Source: Flavobacteriales bacterium
GTDB taxonomy: Bacteria > Bacteroidota > Bacteroidia > Flavobacteriales > BACL11
Length of the DNA: 37,071 nucleotides
Assembly: GCA_014381465.1 (NCBI GenBank)
Contig: JACNLP010000023.1
Coordinates: 1 to 37,071, forward strand
Direction of reading: 5' to 3'
Positions 24,576 through 30,131 of the stretch are shown piece by piece. The notes under the pieces are model-generated. The model was not told the origin of the DNA and ran no database searches. It was given only the letters and a program-made list of their open reading frames with translations. How positions within the stretch are numbered: the stretch's first letter is position 1; every line of letters begins with the position of its first letter. Both the position numbers and the translations under genes were made by a program.

Positions 24576-25586
24576 ATGATGAACTTTAAAGAAAGAATAA
24601 ATGCTTTTAGTGAGTTGGGGAATTACTTTTCCAATGGATTAGATGATGAGTTTACTGAAAAAATAAGAGAAGCAGAAATAAAGAATCCTTGGTTTACAAC
24701 AGAAAATCAAAAACAAGCTATTTATGTTTGGGGGGAGCAACTTACAAATGAAAACCTTGATGCTTGGCTTTCGCCTTATCATCTGTCAGAGAATAAAAAG
24801 CCAAAAAATGTGCTGATTATTATGGCTGGGAATATACCGCTTGTGGGGTTTCACGATTTTTTATCTGTTTTAATTAGCGGGGATAATGCAGTTATAAAAA
24901 TGTCTGTTAATGATAATATTTTGTTACCCTTTATAATTAAAAAACTAATAGAAATAAACCCTGAATTTGAGAAAAAGATACAATTTGTAGAAGAAATTAA
25001 AAACAAAAAGTTTGATGTAGTAATTGCAACTGGCTCTGATATGTCGGCTAAGTATTTTGATTATTATTTTAAAAATGCCAAGAAAATAATCAGAAAAAAT
25101 AGAAAGTCAGTTGCTATTTTAGATGGCACTGAAAGTAAAGAAGAACTTGGGCTTCTTGCAAAAGATGTTTTTTCTTACTTTGGCTTAGGCTGCAGAAATG
25201 TGTCTAAAATTTTCTTACCAAAGGGATATGATTTAGATCAATTATTTGAGGTGTTTTACCCGTATCAAGAAGTAATAGAACATAAAAAATATAGTAATAA
25301 TTACGATTATAATAAAGCTGTTTATCTGATGGGGAATTATGAGATTACTGAAAACGGATTCCTGCTTTTAAAGGAAGATTCTTCTCTGCAATCACCACTT
25401 GCTATGTTGCATTATGAGTTTTATTCCAATATAGAAAAAGTTGAAAGTTTTATTGCTAAAAATAAGCAGCAGCTACAATGTATTGTTTCCAAAGACCATA
25501 TTGCTTTTGGGCAAACGCAAAAGCCCAATCTTTGGGACTATGCTGATGGAGAGGATACTATTGAATTTTTGAGAGAGGAAGAATAA
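24576..25586 (+). CDS. LuxC-family acyl-CoA reductase
   Basis: A protein of 336 residues matching the LuxC/aldehyde-dehydrogenase-like fold: NVLIIMAGNIPLVGFHDFLS as the nucleotide-binding start, FDVVIATGSDMSAKYFDYYF, RKNRKSVAILDGTE and FGLGCRNVSKIFLP, where Cys206 is the expected catalytic thiol. LuxC enzymes reduce acyl-CoA or acyl thioesters to aldehydes using NADPH; the substrate here is unknown. There are no luciferase or other lux genes nearby, as is usual for the stand-alone members of Bacteroidota. The protein is shorter than Vibrio LuxC (about 480). It starts 15 nt after a TATTTTTG -7 box, and two ATG codons stand in tandem at the start. Confidence 0.85.
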   Translation: MMNFKERINAFSELGNYFSNGLDDEFTEKIREAEIKNPWFTTENQKQAIYVWGEQLTNENLDAWLSPYHLSENKKPKNVLIIMAGNIPLVGFHDFLSVLISGDNAVIKMSVNDNILLPFIIKKLIEINPEFEKKIQFVEEIKNKKFDVVIATGSDMSAKYFDYYFKNAKKIIRKNRKSVAILDGTESKEELGLLAKDVFSYFGLGCRNVSKIFLPKGYDLDQLFEVFYPYQEVIEHKKYSNNYDYNKAVYLMGNYEITENGFLLLKEDSSLQSPLAMLHYEFYSNIEKVESFIAKNKQQLQCIVSKDHIAFGQTQKPNLWDYADGEDTIEFLREEE

Positions 25587-25765
25587 AAAATATTCCAAAA
25601 ACGAGATATCTCACACAAGGTTCGATATGACAATATTTTTTAATTGCTACATTTTCTTCTTATTAGCACATCTTCAAGTTTATAGTTTTGGTTCATAAAA
25701 AATAGTCCAAAAACAAGATATCTCACACAAGGTTCGATATGACAACATTTTTTAATTGTTACATT
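25583..25765. repeat. 71-bp direct repeat after the reductase gene
   Basis: 25583-25653 and 25695-25765 are the same 71-bp sequence with about four mismatches, 112 bp apart. The first copy begins at the stop codon of the reductase gene. Each contains GAGATATCTC-like and GGTTCGATATGACA words; read on the minus strand they belong to the same TGTCAT..ATCTC family seen at 8908. No gene lies in this stretch. Confidence 0.85.
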
Positions 25766-25800
25766 ATTTTTCAATTTTTCCATTATCTCAATACTATTTA

Positions 25801-25808
25801 TATATTTG
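25801..25808 (+). promoter_or_regulatory. -7 element of the cobalamin-riboswitch transcript
   Basis: TATATTTG fits TANNTTTG and lies 13 nt before the first riboswitch stem (25821), which is where a transcript carrying the full aptamer should start. No clear -33 TTTG. Confidence 0.6.
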
Positions 25809-25820
25809 CCCCATATTAGT

Positions 25821-25970
25821 ACACCAAATAGGTGTAAAAGGGAATGAGGTGTGAATCCTCAACTTTACCAGAAGCTGTAAAGTCCACTAGATTTTAGAGA
25901 CCACATTGCCACTGTTTATCAAATGGGAAGGCCACTCTAAAAAGGACCAAGTCAGAAGACCTGCTAAGTA
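25821..25970 (+). ncRNA. Cobalamin (B12) riboswitch
   Basis: Opening stem ACACC..GGTGT (25821-25835), then GGGAATGAGGTGTGAATCCTC, a second arm AGCTGTAAAGTCC, the GCCACTGT element (25908-25915), ATGGGAAGGCCACT, and the B12 box AGTCAGAAGACCTGCT (25950-25965). This order and wording match class-I cobalamin riboswitches. It lies 44 bp before the ATG of a TonB receptor. B12 binding should lower expression of that gene. The box word CCTGC (25960-25964) is complementary to GCAGG (26001-26005) just before the ATG, a possible part of the switch. Confidence 0.93.
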
Positions 25971-26008
25971 AACAAAACCGAATCGTTTCTGGTTAAAACG
26001 GCAGGAAG

Positions 26009-27880
26009 ATGAAACATTTTTTAACAAACATATTACTCTATTTTGGACTATCAGTTAATCTGCTGGCGCAAACTACTTTGGATACCATTTACCTTCCGGA
26101 AGTAAAGCTAATTGAAAGCAAAATACAAACCCATTCTATTGGAAGTAAAACAGAAACTATTTCTACTATTTTATTAGGAGAAAGCAAGACCCAAACCCTT
26201 GCCGATTTCCTTACTAAAAATGGCAGTATTTTTATCAAACAATATGGCGCTTTGGCTACTCCTGCTTTTAGAGGAACGGCTGCCTCACACACCCTCTTTT
26301 TATGGAACGATATTCCTTTAAATTCCCTTTCCACAGGGATGATTGATATGGGCTTATTGCCTGCTAATTGCTTTGACCAATTGCAAGTTGCTTACGGAGG
26401 TAGTTCATCCATTTTTGGAAGTGGCGCCATTGGCGGAAGTATTCACCTTGATAACATTGTTGCTTTTCAAAAAAAACAGGAAATAAAACTTGCTTATGAA
26501 GTGGGTTCCTTTGGCTTAAAATCTAGAAATTTAGAATTGAAACACGCTAATAAGAGGAACTTTCTAAAAGTAATTTATAGTAAAGTAGAGGATGAAAACA
26601 ACTTTTCCTTTATCAATACCGTGAAAAGAGATAATCCTTTGGAATACAACAAGCACGCTATGGTAAAATCAGAAAACTTACAAGCTGTTTTCGGCTTTCA
26701 ATACAATACAAAAAATAGGGTAGAAACGCACTTTTGGAAAGTACAAACAGAAAGGGAAATTCCATCCAATATGACAGTGCCAAATTCTACTGCCATGCAG
26801 TATGATGATGCCAATCGTTTTTTGCTAAAATCTTCTCATTCCATAGGTGGAGGAACTCTTAAATTAAAACAAGCATTGATGAAGGAGGACTTTAATTATG
26901 TGGATAAACCAAAGAATATAGATAGTAAAATATTGGCAAAAAACTACATCTCCAATGCGGATTATAACTACTGTTTAAGGTACTTTACTTTTAATGTTGG
27001 GGCGGCTTTTACCAATAATAATATAGAAAGCAATAACTATAAAAATGGTAAAAGAGAGGAGAATGAAAAGGCAGTTTATTCATCTTTCCAAACTAATTTT
27101 AAAGGGTTTTCTTCTGCTATTTCTATAAGAAAGCAAATGCACAGCACTTATGTAATCCCTTTAATTCCATCTGTTGGAATCCATCAAAAACTTACTGACT
27201 TCCTTTCTGTTCGTGCCAAAACAAATAAGAATTTCCGTTCACCCACTTTTAACGAAAGGTTTTGGGCAGGACTTGGAAATGCTGATTTACTTACAGAAAA
27301 TGGATGGAGTCATGAGGCTGGTTTTGATGTAAAACTAAAAGGATTGACAATAAGTGCGACTGCTTTCTCATTAAAAGTGCAAGATTGGATTCAATGGATG
27401 CCAAATGCAGTTGGTATTTGGAATGCAGAAAATATCAAACAAGTGTGGAGTAGAGGGATTGAGGGAAATTGTAAAATAAAAGTTCCATTAAATAAAGCTG
27501 AAATTTTGTTGATTGGGAACTATCAGTACAACCAATCGACCAACGAAAAAGGGATAAGCGCATTGGATAACTCTATCAGTAAGCAATTGATTTATACGCC
27601 ATTTCATAAAGGCAATCTTATTTTTATACTGAAAGAAAACAATTTCCAATTGAGCATCAATCAATCTTATAATGGCTCGGTTTTTACTACTTCCGATAAT
27701 AAGGAAAGTTTAGAGGCTTATCTGCTTTGTGATGTAGCGCTTTTGTATCAATTTCAAGAAGCTCCACTTAGCTTTCAATTGACAATAAAAAATATCAGAA
27801 ACAAAACTTATCAGCCCTATAAAAATTATCCGGCTGCTGGCAGAGAATTATTATTAACCTTAAATTATATTATTAACTAA
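26009..27880 (+). CDS. btuB: TonB-dependent cobalamin receptor (BtuB-like)
   Basis: A protein of 623 residues. Signal peptide (to about residue 20, LSVNLLAQ), a plug domain (DFLTKNGSIFIKQYGALATP, AFRGTAASHTLFLWNDIPLN, LQVAYGGSSSIFGSGAIGGS) and a 22-strand-type barrel that ends GRELLLTLNYIIN. Length is close to BtuB of enterobacteria (about 600) and there is no N-terminal carboxypeptidase-like domain, unlike SusC-type receptors. It is the first gene after the cobalamin riboswitch and is followed 14 bp later by a BtuG-like lipoprotein, so vitamin B12 or another corrinoid is the most likely substrate. Energy comes from TonB-ExbBD encoded elsewhere. Confidence 0.9.
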   Translation: MKHFLTNILLYFGLSVNLLAQTTLDTIYLPEVKLIESKIQTHSIGSKTETISTILLGESKTQTLADFLTKNGSIFIKQYGALATPAFRGTAASHTLFLWNDIPLNSLSTGMIDMGLLPANCFDQLQVAYGGSSSIFGSGAIGGSIHLDNIVAFQKKQEIKLAYEVGSFGLKSRNLELKHANKRNFLKVIYSKVEDENNFSFINTVKRDNPLEYNKHAMVKSENLQAVFGFQYNTKNRVETHFWKVQTEREIPSNMTVPNSTAMQYDDANRFLLKSSHSIGGGTLKLKQALMKEDFNYVDKPKNIDSKILAKNYISNADYNYCLRYFTFNVGAAFTNNNIESNNYKNGKREENEKAVYSSFQTNFKGFSSAISIRKQMHSTYVIPLIPSVGIHQKLTDFLSVRAKTNKNFRSPTFNERFWAGLGNADLLTENGWSHEAGFDVKLKGLTISATAFSLKVQDWIQWMPNAVGIWNAENIKQVWSRGIEGNCKIKVPLNKAEILLIGNYQYNQSTNEKGISALDNSISKQLIYTPFHKGNLIFILKENNFQLSINQSYNGSVFTTSDNKESLEAYLLCDVALLYQFQEAPLSFQLTIKNIRNKTYQPYKNYPAAGRELLLTLNYIIN

Positions 27881-27894
27881 AAACAAAAACAATT

Positions 27895-28983
27895 ATGAAA
27901 AAACAGTTAAAACAATTAGGAATGATTGCAATGGCAATCTGCACCTTATCATCTTGTAAAAAAGATACACCAACAACATCTGTTACAGAGGGTAATTATG
28001 AGCATGGTTACTTTGTGACCAATGAAGGAGGCTTTGGAAGTGGAAATGGATCCATCTCTTTTATTAGCAATGATAACACAGTAGAAAATAATGTGTTTGC
28101 ATCCATAAACTCTTTCCTTTTAGGAGATGTGGTGCAATCTATGAATATCATTAATGATAAGGCTTATATTGTAGTGAATAATTCTTATAAAATTGAAGTT
28201 GCTAATATCGATTCCATGACGCATGTTGCAAGCATTGAAGGAGGGCATTTTCAAAGCCCAAGATATATTTTGCAAGTAGATGAAAACAAAGCCTATGTCT
28301 CAGATTGGGGAGGCGGTTTTGGTGGAGCTATTGTTATTATTGATTTAGACAGCAACATACAAACTGATCTTATTTATAATGGCGGTAGTCCTGAGGGTTT
28401 AGTAAAGTCGGGCGATAAAGTTTTTACTGCTGATGGTGGTTATGGTTGGTCTGGATCTGCTCCCAGAGTTTCGGTCATCAGTACCATTACAGACGAAATA
28501 GAAAGCACCATTGATGTTGGGGATGTGCCAAGGTCTATTCAAGTAGATGCAAATGGAGATGTTTGGGTACTTTGTGAGGGAAAAACAGAATATGATGCTG
28601 ATTGGAATATTGTTGGGCATACAGCAGGGCAGTTGGTCAAAATAAACGGTACTACTGCTCAAATTGAAGAAACATTTATTTTTGCAGATTCTACTCAGCA
28701 TCCAAGTAATTTAGTGATTAATGATGCAGGAACAACTTTGTATTTTAGTAACGGAGGTTGGGCAAAAGCCGTTTATGCTTTTGATATTGCTGATACACAA
28801 TTACCAACTACTGCACTCATAAATAAAAGTTTTTATGGATTAGGCTGTAATGGGGGCTATATTTACGGAACAGATGCTGTGGATTTTGTGCAAAATGGTT
28901 GGTCCTACCGATACACTACAAGTGGAGCTATTGTAGATTCAGTGCAAGTTGGTATTATTCCAGGAGGTTATAGTTTTAATTAA
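27895..28983 (+). CDS. BtuG-like beta-propeller surface lipoprotein (DUF5074/YncE-like)
   Basis: A protein of 362 residues. Signal ending in TLSSC (Cys21) marks a lipoprotein. The rest shows seven-bladed-propeller repeats of the YncE/DUF5074 type, for example YFVTNEGGFGSGNGSISFIS, KAYIVVNNSYKIEVANID, KAYVSDWGGGFGGAIVIIDL, RSIQVDANGDVWVLCEG and HPSNLVINDAGTTLYFSNGG. BtuG of Bacteroides is a surface propeller lipoprotein that captures corrinoids and hands them to BtuB. Position directly behind the riboswitch-controlled receptor, in one transcript ending at the terminator at 29011, makes the same role likely. Corrinoid binding itself is inferred. Confidence 0.83.
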   Translation: MKKQLKQLGMIAMAICTLSSCKKDTPTTSVTEGNYEHGYFVTNEGGFGSGNGSISFISNDNTVENNVFASINSFLLGDVVQSMNIINDKAYIVVNNSYKIEVANIDSMTHVASIEGGHFQSPRYILQVDENKAYVSDWGGGFGGAIVIIDLDSNIQTDLIYNGGSPEGLVKSGDKVFTADGGYGWSGSAPRVSVISTITDEIESTIDVGDVPRSIQVDANGDVWVLCEGKTEYDADWNIVGHTAGQLVKINGTTAQIEETFIFADSTQHPSNLVINDAGTTLYFSNGGWAKAVYAFDIADTQLPTTALINKSFYGLGCNGGYIYGTDAVDFVQNGWSYRYTTSGAIVDSVQVGIIPGGYSFN

Positions 28984-29010
28984 TCTTGAGTAAGTAAGAT
29001 TTAGATTTAA

Positions 29011-29038
29011 AGAGGGAGGCATTTGTCTCCCTTTTTTT
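29011..29038 (+). terminator. Rho-independent terminator after the BtuG-like gene
   Basis: AGGGAG (29013-29018) pairs with CTCCCT (29027-29032) around an 8-nt loop, followed by seven T. It separates the first propeller lipoprotein from the second. Confidence 0.88.
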
Positions 29039-29060
29039 ATCTTTACCAAAAATTTAAGTC

Positions 29061-30131
29061 ATGAAATTTCTAAAATACTTCCTTCTTTTATCCATAGTAA
29101 TATCCTCTTGTAAAACAGAAGAAGATGAGCCAACTCCAGAGTTTTCGAAAGATTATGGGAAAGGCATGTATATCCTTACTGATCAGGGAGTTTCTTTTTA
29201 TAATTTAGAAGATGTTGATTCGCTTAGAGTGATGAAAAATGGTATTTATAAATCGGTAAACAATACAAGTATTTCACAACCCAAAAGCATCACTATTAAA
29301 GGAAATCAAGCATTTATTATTGGTGATAAAGTTTATACAGTTGACATTGAAACATTTGGAAGTTTGGGTAGTATTACAGGCTTTTCCAATCCGATAAGTT
29401 GCGTAAGGGTGGATAATAATAGGTTGTATGTGGTAGATAAAGGAGATGCTACTGTAAAGGTAGTTGATTTAATCAAAAAAGAAATTCAAAGCCATATTGA
29501 AACTGGAGATGGGACTCAGCCAACTAAAATTGTGAATAATTGGTTCAGAACAGTAATTATGAATGGAGGCAGTAGCACAAAAGCAGAAAGAGATAGTTCT
29601 ATTGTGTCTATCGATTATTTTACAAAATACGATTTTGTTGTGGTAGATGATTTTTCAGGAAAATTAGATGTAGGTTACAATCCAAATAGTGCTGTTTTTG
29701 GTACAGATGATTTGTGGGTTTTATGTAAAGGAATTTATGACCCTAATAATCCTGTTGATAATACGCCAGGAACTATTTATCAAGTATGGCCCTATAGTGT
29801 TTTGTCCTCTTTTTTTAATAAAACACTTAGTGGCATTTATAATGCGGATAATTTGACAATAAATAAATCAAAAAGCAGACTGTTTTTTACTGCAGAAAAT
29901 GGAGTGTATATTACGGATTTAGGAATTAATCCTACAGTACATATTCCTGGTATTGATGCTAGTTTTATCGCTATTAACACCGAGTCAATTAATGATAGCA
30001 CAAATGTAGAATATCTTTATACAAATGATGCTAATCAAAGTGGATTGGTTTTAAAATATGAAGCTTGGACTGGTGACTTTGTAGAATCCATTGTGGTAAA
30101 TGGAACTGCATTAGAAGTCGCTTTTTACTAA
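29061..30131 (+). CDS. Second propeller lipoprotein of the cobalamin locus
   Basis: A protein of 356 residues. Short signal with lipobox VISSC (Cys17). Propeller-like repeats: KGMYILTDQGVSFYNLEDVD, QAFIIGDKVYTVDIETFGSL, RLYVVDKGDATVKVVDLIKK, TDDLWVLCKGIYDPNNP and RLFFTAENGVYITDLGI. It shares blade motifs with the preceding BtuG-like protein (WVLC and terminal blade layout) but is clearly diverged. A terminator stands between them and a near-consensus TATCTTTA (29038-29045) lies 15 nt upstream, so it may be transcribed separately or by read-through. A second corrinoid-capture protein or one for another ligand; unknown. Confidence 0.75.
   Translation: MKFLKYFLLLSIVISSCKTEEDEPTPEFSKDYGKGMYILTDQGVSFYNLEDVDSLRVMKNGIYKSVNNTSISQPKSITIKGNQAFIIGDKVYTVDIETFGSLGSITGFSNPISCVRVDNNRLYVVDKGDATVKVVDLIKKEIQSHIETGDGTQPTKIVNNWFRTVIMNGGSSTKAERDSSIVSIDYFTKYDFVVVDDFSGKLDVGYNPNSAVFGTDDLWVLCKGIYDPNNPVDNTPGTIYQVWPYSVLSSFFNKTLSGIYNADNLTINKSKSRLFFTAENGVYITDLGINPTVHIPGIDASFIAINTESINDSTNVEYLYTNDANQSGLVLKYEAWTGDFVESIVVNGTALEVAFY

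Follow-up and report, generated by a model that had tools for sequence, protein, structure and literature searches.

The window analyzed here is a stretch of 37,071 nucleotides from a Flavobacteriales bacterium (assembly GCA_014381465.1, contig JACNLP010000023.1), whose genome of 1.98 Mb is 97% complete. On its forward strand lies a locus for the uptake of vitamin B12 (cobalamin), in which a class-I cobalamin riboswitch (25790–25982) is followed by the gene for BtuB, a TonB-dependent corrinoid receptor of 623 amino acids (26009–27880), and, 14 bp further on, by the gene for BtuG, a seven-bladed propeller surface lipoprotein of 362 amino acids that would serve as the corrinoid-capturing lid (27895–28983). 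An intrinsic terminator (29009–29036) closes this unit. A predicted promoter −7 box, TATCTTTAC, of the sigma-A TAnnTTTG type (29038–29046) abuts the T run of the terminator, and it is followed by the gene of a second, diverged propeller lipoprotein, labeled P3 (29061–30131, 356 amino acids). This order of elements had been proposed in a preliminary description of the sequence and was confirmed; the only correction needed concerns the riboswitch, which is present as described, with its start placed by cmscan at 25790, 11 bases before the 25801 given earlier. What is new at the locus is P3, which would be a family-restricted descendant of BtuG, probably expressed on its own and provided with a different pocket.

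The riboswitch matches RF00174 over the full length of the model (positions 1–189) with 81.7 bits against a gathering threshold of 31.5 (E 8e-19), and it is the only copy found in the whole genome. Since the ATG of BtuB lies 26 nucleotides downstream of the aptamer and no plus-strand terminator is reported between the two, translational control appears to be the likelier mode of regulation. BtuB contains the plug and barrel domains of TonB receptors, its top NCBIfam model is TonB-B12, and its best solved relatives in phmmer searches are the Bacteroides BtuB proteins of BtuB–BtuG complexes (8p97, 8p98, and 8bmx; E 2e-44). Its score against the NCBIfam equivalog TIGR01779 is 105.9 bits, below the cut-off of 599.7, and the gene is therefore not filed under that model; the name BtuB is given because the protein is close to its Bacteroides counterpart, is preceded by the riboswitch, and adjoins BtuG. 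BtuG in turn contains a DUF5074 domain (E 1e-24), has the Bacteroides BtuGs as its closest solved relatives (phmmer, E 2e-37), carries the lipobox LSSC-KKD, and keeps every one of the 52 columns whose conservation extends from the BtuGs of its family to those of other Flavobacteriales; it is, in short, a DUF5074 propeller lipoprotein adjoining BtuB behind a B12 riboswitch. Both proteins are unremarkable relatives of those in the solved Bacteroides complex, and the pair is already known. In Bacteroides thetaiotaomicron, BtuG acts as a lid at the cell surface, where it captures corrinoid and delivers it to BtuB (PMC10404256 and PMC6143338), and by homology the BtuG of this locus should do the same.

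The earlier view of P3 as a second, diverged propeller lipoprotein is borne out by profile comparison, direct alignment, and predicted fold, all of which make it a BtuG homologue. No Pfam or NCBIfam family is significant for P3, neither DUF5074 nor DUF4374 being matched. Direct alignment with the neighboring BtuG gives 23% identity (E 9e-8), and a profile of 27 P3 sequences recovers nine BtuG sequences from the PDB, the best at E 8e-14, and apart from these a single weak match at E 0.0018. The structure prediction named as a check in the preliminary description points the same way: the AlphaFold2 model, built from an alignment of 11 rows (predicted local distance difference test, pLDDT, 77.6; predicted template modeling score, pTM, 0.77), matches BtuG best, the top 16 Foldseek matches all being BtuG structures. 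A lipobox, ISSC-KTEEDE, is also present. In the tree, all P3 sequences fall into one clade, which arises inside the BtuG radiation on a long stem (1.4–1.6 changes per site), and the mean pairwise identity of P3 is 43% as against 60% for BtuG, being the lower of the two in 200 of 210 locus pairs. Judged from these comparisons, P3 is a true but distant paralogue of BtuG, an old and fast-evolving copy. A chance open reading frame or an unrelated propeller is ruled out by the PDB profile matches, by the Foldseek matches to BtuG, and by 30 columns that are invariant across 27 diverse P3 sequences, an invariance which also indicates that P3 is under selection.

Homology and propeller fold thus place P3 with the BtuG family; the residues of the BtuG pocket, in contrast, are mostly lost. 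Only 22 of the 52 BtuG core columns are kept by the P3 group (27 by the P3 of the window), and many of the 22 are glycine, proline, or aliphatic residues. The lost or deleted positions comprise the TNEG loop, NNS 107–109, PR 132–133, E180, W194, P273, Y316, and IIPG. The TNEG loop (54–64 in BtuG2 numbering) is likened in PMC10404256 to a jaw of the "pliers" that hold the ligand; beyond the residues and the loop named in that paper, the core columns are taken as pocket-lining from their conservation and not from coordinates. Among the aromatic residues named there, P3 keeps Tyr239, and the BtuG of this family itself alters both Tyr239 and Trp272, so that single residues should not be over-read. 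As far as can be judged from the alignment, the pocket of P3 is different from that of BtuG, with the signature B12-pocket residues lost.

The junction between BtuG and P3 is itself conserved. The hairpin at 29009–29036 has 12 pairs followed by a T run, and the gap between the two genes in 19 aligned loci presents the hairpin, the T run, and the sequence TTTAT.TTT, the columns of which are invariant. Across the 19 loci, five of eight hairpin pairs covary, with 10 cells changed on both sides as against 1–5 in slid-partner controls, and none of 500 shuffles reached the observed number of covarying cells. Of 39 P3 genes, 38 are preceded by the sequence TAnnTTTR at a distance of no more than 60 bp, usually between −20 and −25 and at about −23 in most loci; the corresponding figures are 5 of 28 for BtuG genes and 11% for random 60-bp windows. 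TAnnTTTG is the −7 box recognized by sigma-A in flavobacteria (PMC9723704). No −33 box is claimed for P3, since the spacing did not fit the expected one. In the g14 genomes P3 starts 0–3 bp after the HMG-CoA lyase gene, and the box there lies inside that gene and may be due to chance. Given the covarying terminator and a box of the flavobacterial −7 type, P3 is probably insulated from the riboswitch transcript, with a promoter of its own and outside B12 repression; the conservation of both elements argues against co-transcription of P3 with BtuB behind the riboswitch.

P3 was found with strong matches in 40 of the 52 genomes of the family, the weakest scoring 322 bits with the P3 profile. Outside the family, the profile reached at most 110 bits in the sample of the order and 138 bits in the sample of the class, and no full-strength P3 was found in either. 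In the fetched loci, each order hit that was examined is a single propeller of the BtuG type, and many of these follow a BtuB immediately; in the tree, the three best class hits (L146–L148) are placed beside the BtuGs of the family and not in the P3 clade. The gap in bit scores, the single propellers, and the tree placement rule out a presence of P3 throughout the Flavobacteriales; on these profile searches, the P3 family is at full strength confined to one family of genomes. Among 15 high-quality genomes, all 15 give a match at E ≤ 0.001 and 14 a strong one, the match in the remaining genome (G012) being a BtuG cut by the contig end; BtuB was found in 12 of the 15 (E 1e-20). A search of the genome collection with the P3 sequence alone returned no relatives. 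With the P3 alignment A2, the named relatives were nearly all titled metagenome-assembled genomes of Flavobacteriales or Cryomorphaceae, in agreement with the marine-type Flavobacteriales origin proposed earlier for the BtuB–BtuG locus. One record among the loci (L137) is titled Chryseobacterium gleum, yet it comes from a 1.5-Mb genome of the marine-type family, and the title looks mistaken.

The gene order in many genomes of the family is PyrD, HMG-CoA lyase, riboswitch, BtuB, BtuG, P3, a peptidase-like gene, and YigZ. Elsewhere in the order, PyrD, HMG-CoA lyase, BtuB, and BtuG occur together without P3 (L116, L117, L120, L121, and L132, with the riboswitch present in all four of these that were scanned), an arrangement consistent with BtuG having been duplicated in tandem in the ancestor of the family. 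The possibility raised in the preliminary description, that most copies of the second lipoprotein would lie outside B12 loci, does not hold, since 31 of the 40 P3 genes lie at B12-riboswitch loci (four of them assigned from adjacency to BtuG at contig ends). P3 stands directly behind BtuG in 23 genomes, with the whole riboswitch–BtuB–BtuG unit on the contig in 19 and a contig-end cut in four; directly behind BtuB, with no BtuG, in two (G038 and G047); and behind a riboswitch and the propeller C16 in six, in which BtuB was not found at E 1e-20 and a wider BtuB profile gave only weak TonB-receptor matches. The other nine P3 genes have no upstream riboswitch; for five of them, a riboswitch unit is located elsewhere in the genome. 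P3 is also retained where neither BtuB nor BtuG was found (G026, G027, and others).

The reading favored here, with moderate confidence, is that the locus holds two adjacent transcription units: a B12-repressed BtuB–BtuG pair and P3, a propeller expressed on its own at the cell surface, which would bind a different ligand or dock to a different partner and would not be a second lid of BtuB. The first unit (riboswitch, BtuB, and BtuG) would work in corrinoid uptake like the Bacteroides "pedal bin", BtuG capturing corrinoid at the surface for BtuB, and TonB driving its inward movement. The second unit would be an old tandem duplicate of BtuG whose own promoter, directly behind the terminator of the first, makes repression by B12 improbable; P3 would have kept the propeller and the surface lipid anchor, not the BtuG pocket, and would bind something else, or dock elsewhere, at the cell surface. 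A more far-reaching form is put forward only tentatively and falls somewhat short of even odds: P3 may be the founder of a family of receptor lids derived from BtuG, which is limited to one small-genome marine family of Flavobacteriales, no longer belongs to the B12 riboswitch regulon, and has changed its ligand. If so, a single duplication gave rise, from a B12 lid, to a protein that binds another molecule at the cell surface.

Several observations weigh against the two-unit reading. The alignment behind the AlphaFold2 model of P3 is thin, at 11 rows, and the contact residues considered are those given in the main text of PMC10404256. Like BtuG, P3 carries a strong negative charge, its median net charge being −18. 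A set of polar residues is conserved in P3, which may therefore still bind corrinoid in another pose. Terminators leak, and partial co-regulation of P3 with the riboswitch unit is therefore possible. Most P3 genes (31/40) still stand at B12-riboswitch loci, right after BtuG, BtuB, or another riboswitch-led propeller. Moreover, several of the genomes are incomplete, and the absence of a gene may be a gap.

Some of these points lend weight to the role originally proposed for P3, that of a second corrinoid-capture lipoprotein, acting on other corrinoids or in the second of two steps that pass corrinoid to BtuB. Homology and fold link P3 to BtuG, the shared negative charge and the frequent linkage to the B12 locus (31 of 40 genomes) accord with such a role, and P3 is kept behind BtuB after the loss of BtuG (L036 and L043) as well as behind another riboswitch-led propeller; B. 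thetaiotaomicron also has other B12-binding lipoproteins, such as BtuH and BtuJ, and its B12 operons contain internal promoters (PMC12751083). However, the residues invariant in the BtuG pocket and the N54–T64 loop are lost, the gene is set apart by a terminator and a promoter-like box, and P3 persists in genomes in which no BtuG, or neither BtuB nor BtuG, was found. A second capture role is thus possible but rather doubtful, and it is no longer the favored reading. Less probable still is that P3 is a lid or ligand-binding lipoprotein of another TonB receptor, serving another small molecule such as a siderophore, as the propeller XusB does for XusA in Bacteroides. There is a precedent in a propeller lid of a different family that binds siderophores (PMC13142918), generic TonB receptors occur in the genomes without BtuB, and a TonB receptor-like gene (cluster C14) lies several kb upstream in several loci; nonetheless, the only TonB receptor adjoining P3 in the loci examined is BtuB, and XusB belongs to another family (DUF4374). 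That P3 is a decaying relic of the tandem duplication, held by drift, would agree with its lower identity and its absence from some genomes, but it is very improbable in view of the intact open frames in 40 genomes, the conserved lipobox and promoter box, the 30 invariant columns, and the occurrence of P3 in 14 of 15 high-quality genomes (a contig end cuts the remaining one), all of which point to selection.

Compared with known systems, the locus resembles the B12 uptake complex BtuB–BtuG of B. thetaiotaomicron (PMC6143338 and PMC10404256; structures 8bmx and 8p97) in the riboswitch, BtuB, and the adjacent lipobox-bearing BtuG with its 52 core columns; it differs in its marine-type Flavobacteriales setting, in having no BtuCDF genes nearby, and in the apparently insulated paralogue that follows. 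P3 shares with the BtuG family (DUF5074, PF16819) sequence homology, predicted fold, lipoprotein signal, and locus, whereas the DUF5074 match and the pocket signature are missing, a terminator–promoter junction of its own precedes it, and it is kept without BtuG or BtuB. The likeness to XusB (PMC13142918) is one of possible working only, namely a propeller surface lipoprotein in a lid role with a ligand other than corrinoid; XusB is of the DUF4374 family, and P3 has no adjacent partner receptor. Like BtuH and BtuJ of Bacteroides (PMC8941943 and PMC12751083), P3 would be an extra surface protein at a B12 locus, although BtuJ is a jelly-roll (PMC12751083) and P3 a predicted propeller derived from BtuG itself. 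Work on BtuG centers on gut Bacteroides, and in the literature searched a single paper mentions BtuG together with flavobacteria and cobalamin, naming it just twice; the present locus provides a BtuB–BtuG pair from marine-type, apparently B12-auxotrophic Flavobacteriales. It also offers, in P3, a paralogue of single origin by which a change of role of a capture lipoprotein can be studied, the related genomes forming a natural series that includes loss of BtuG alone, loss of both BtuB and BtuG, and a riboswitch located at another site.

Regarding the wider handling of corrinoids, a B12-binding domain is present in all 52 family genomes and the corrin-synthesis gene CbiC in none of them, and for this reason these bacteria look like B12 scavengers, apparently auxotrophic for the vitamin. 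Neither BtuCDF nor B12-synthesis genes were seen among the neighboring open reading frames examined, as noted earlier. A FecCD/BtuC permease was not found in the source genome, and it passes the cut-off in 2 of the 52 family genomes; strong FecCD matches occur only in G030 and G033, in neither of which a riboswitch or BtuB was found. That a BtuC-type permease goes mostly undetected in BtuB-bearing genomes sharpens the question of how corrinoids cross the inner membrane.

The propeller C16, a secreted protein of about 398 amino acids mostly without a lipobox, is led by a cobalamin riboswitch in L035, L046, L047, L049, L050, and L058 (and in L099 and L100). It adjoins P3 in six genomes, where no ortholog of BtuB or BtuG was found, and it retains the NEG motif, Y316, and P360 of BtuG. 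P3 and C16 join in the tree, a grouping that was flagged as possible long-branch attraction and not used.

Just upstream of the riboswitch of the window lie two direct repeats of 76 bp on the forward strand (25583–25658 and 25695–25770, together spanning 25583–25770) that are 92% identical, in the place where relatives carry PyrD and HMG-CoA lyase. The window contains just two copies of their 29-bp core, and no exact copy of it was present in the other fetched loci; the region is possibly a rearrangement junction.

Other variants of the locus were noticed in the order. The BtuGs of L033, L038, L059, and L112 lack a lipobox and end in an apparent type IX secretion sorting tail, confirmed as PF18962 in L038 and L112, which looks like surface display through secretion in place of lipidation. 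L127, which belongs to a different family of the order, has a gene for a DUF4465 protein between those of BtuB and BtuG, and this protein carries a type IX sorting tail; DUF4465 is the family of the B12-binding BtuJ/BtuH-type proteins of B. thetaiotaomicron, and genes in L130 and L134 resemble that of L127, by appearance alone. Finally, weak cobalamin riboswitch matches (26–35 bits, two of them above 31.5) lie just 5′ of the small and large chains of ribonucleotide reductase in L107, L108, and L109, the identity of the reductase being confirmed by Pfam for L108.

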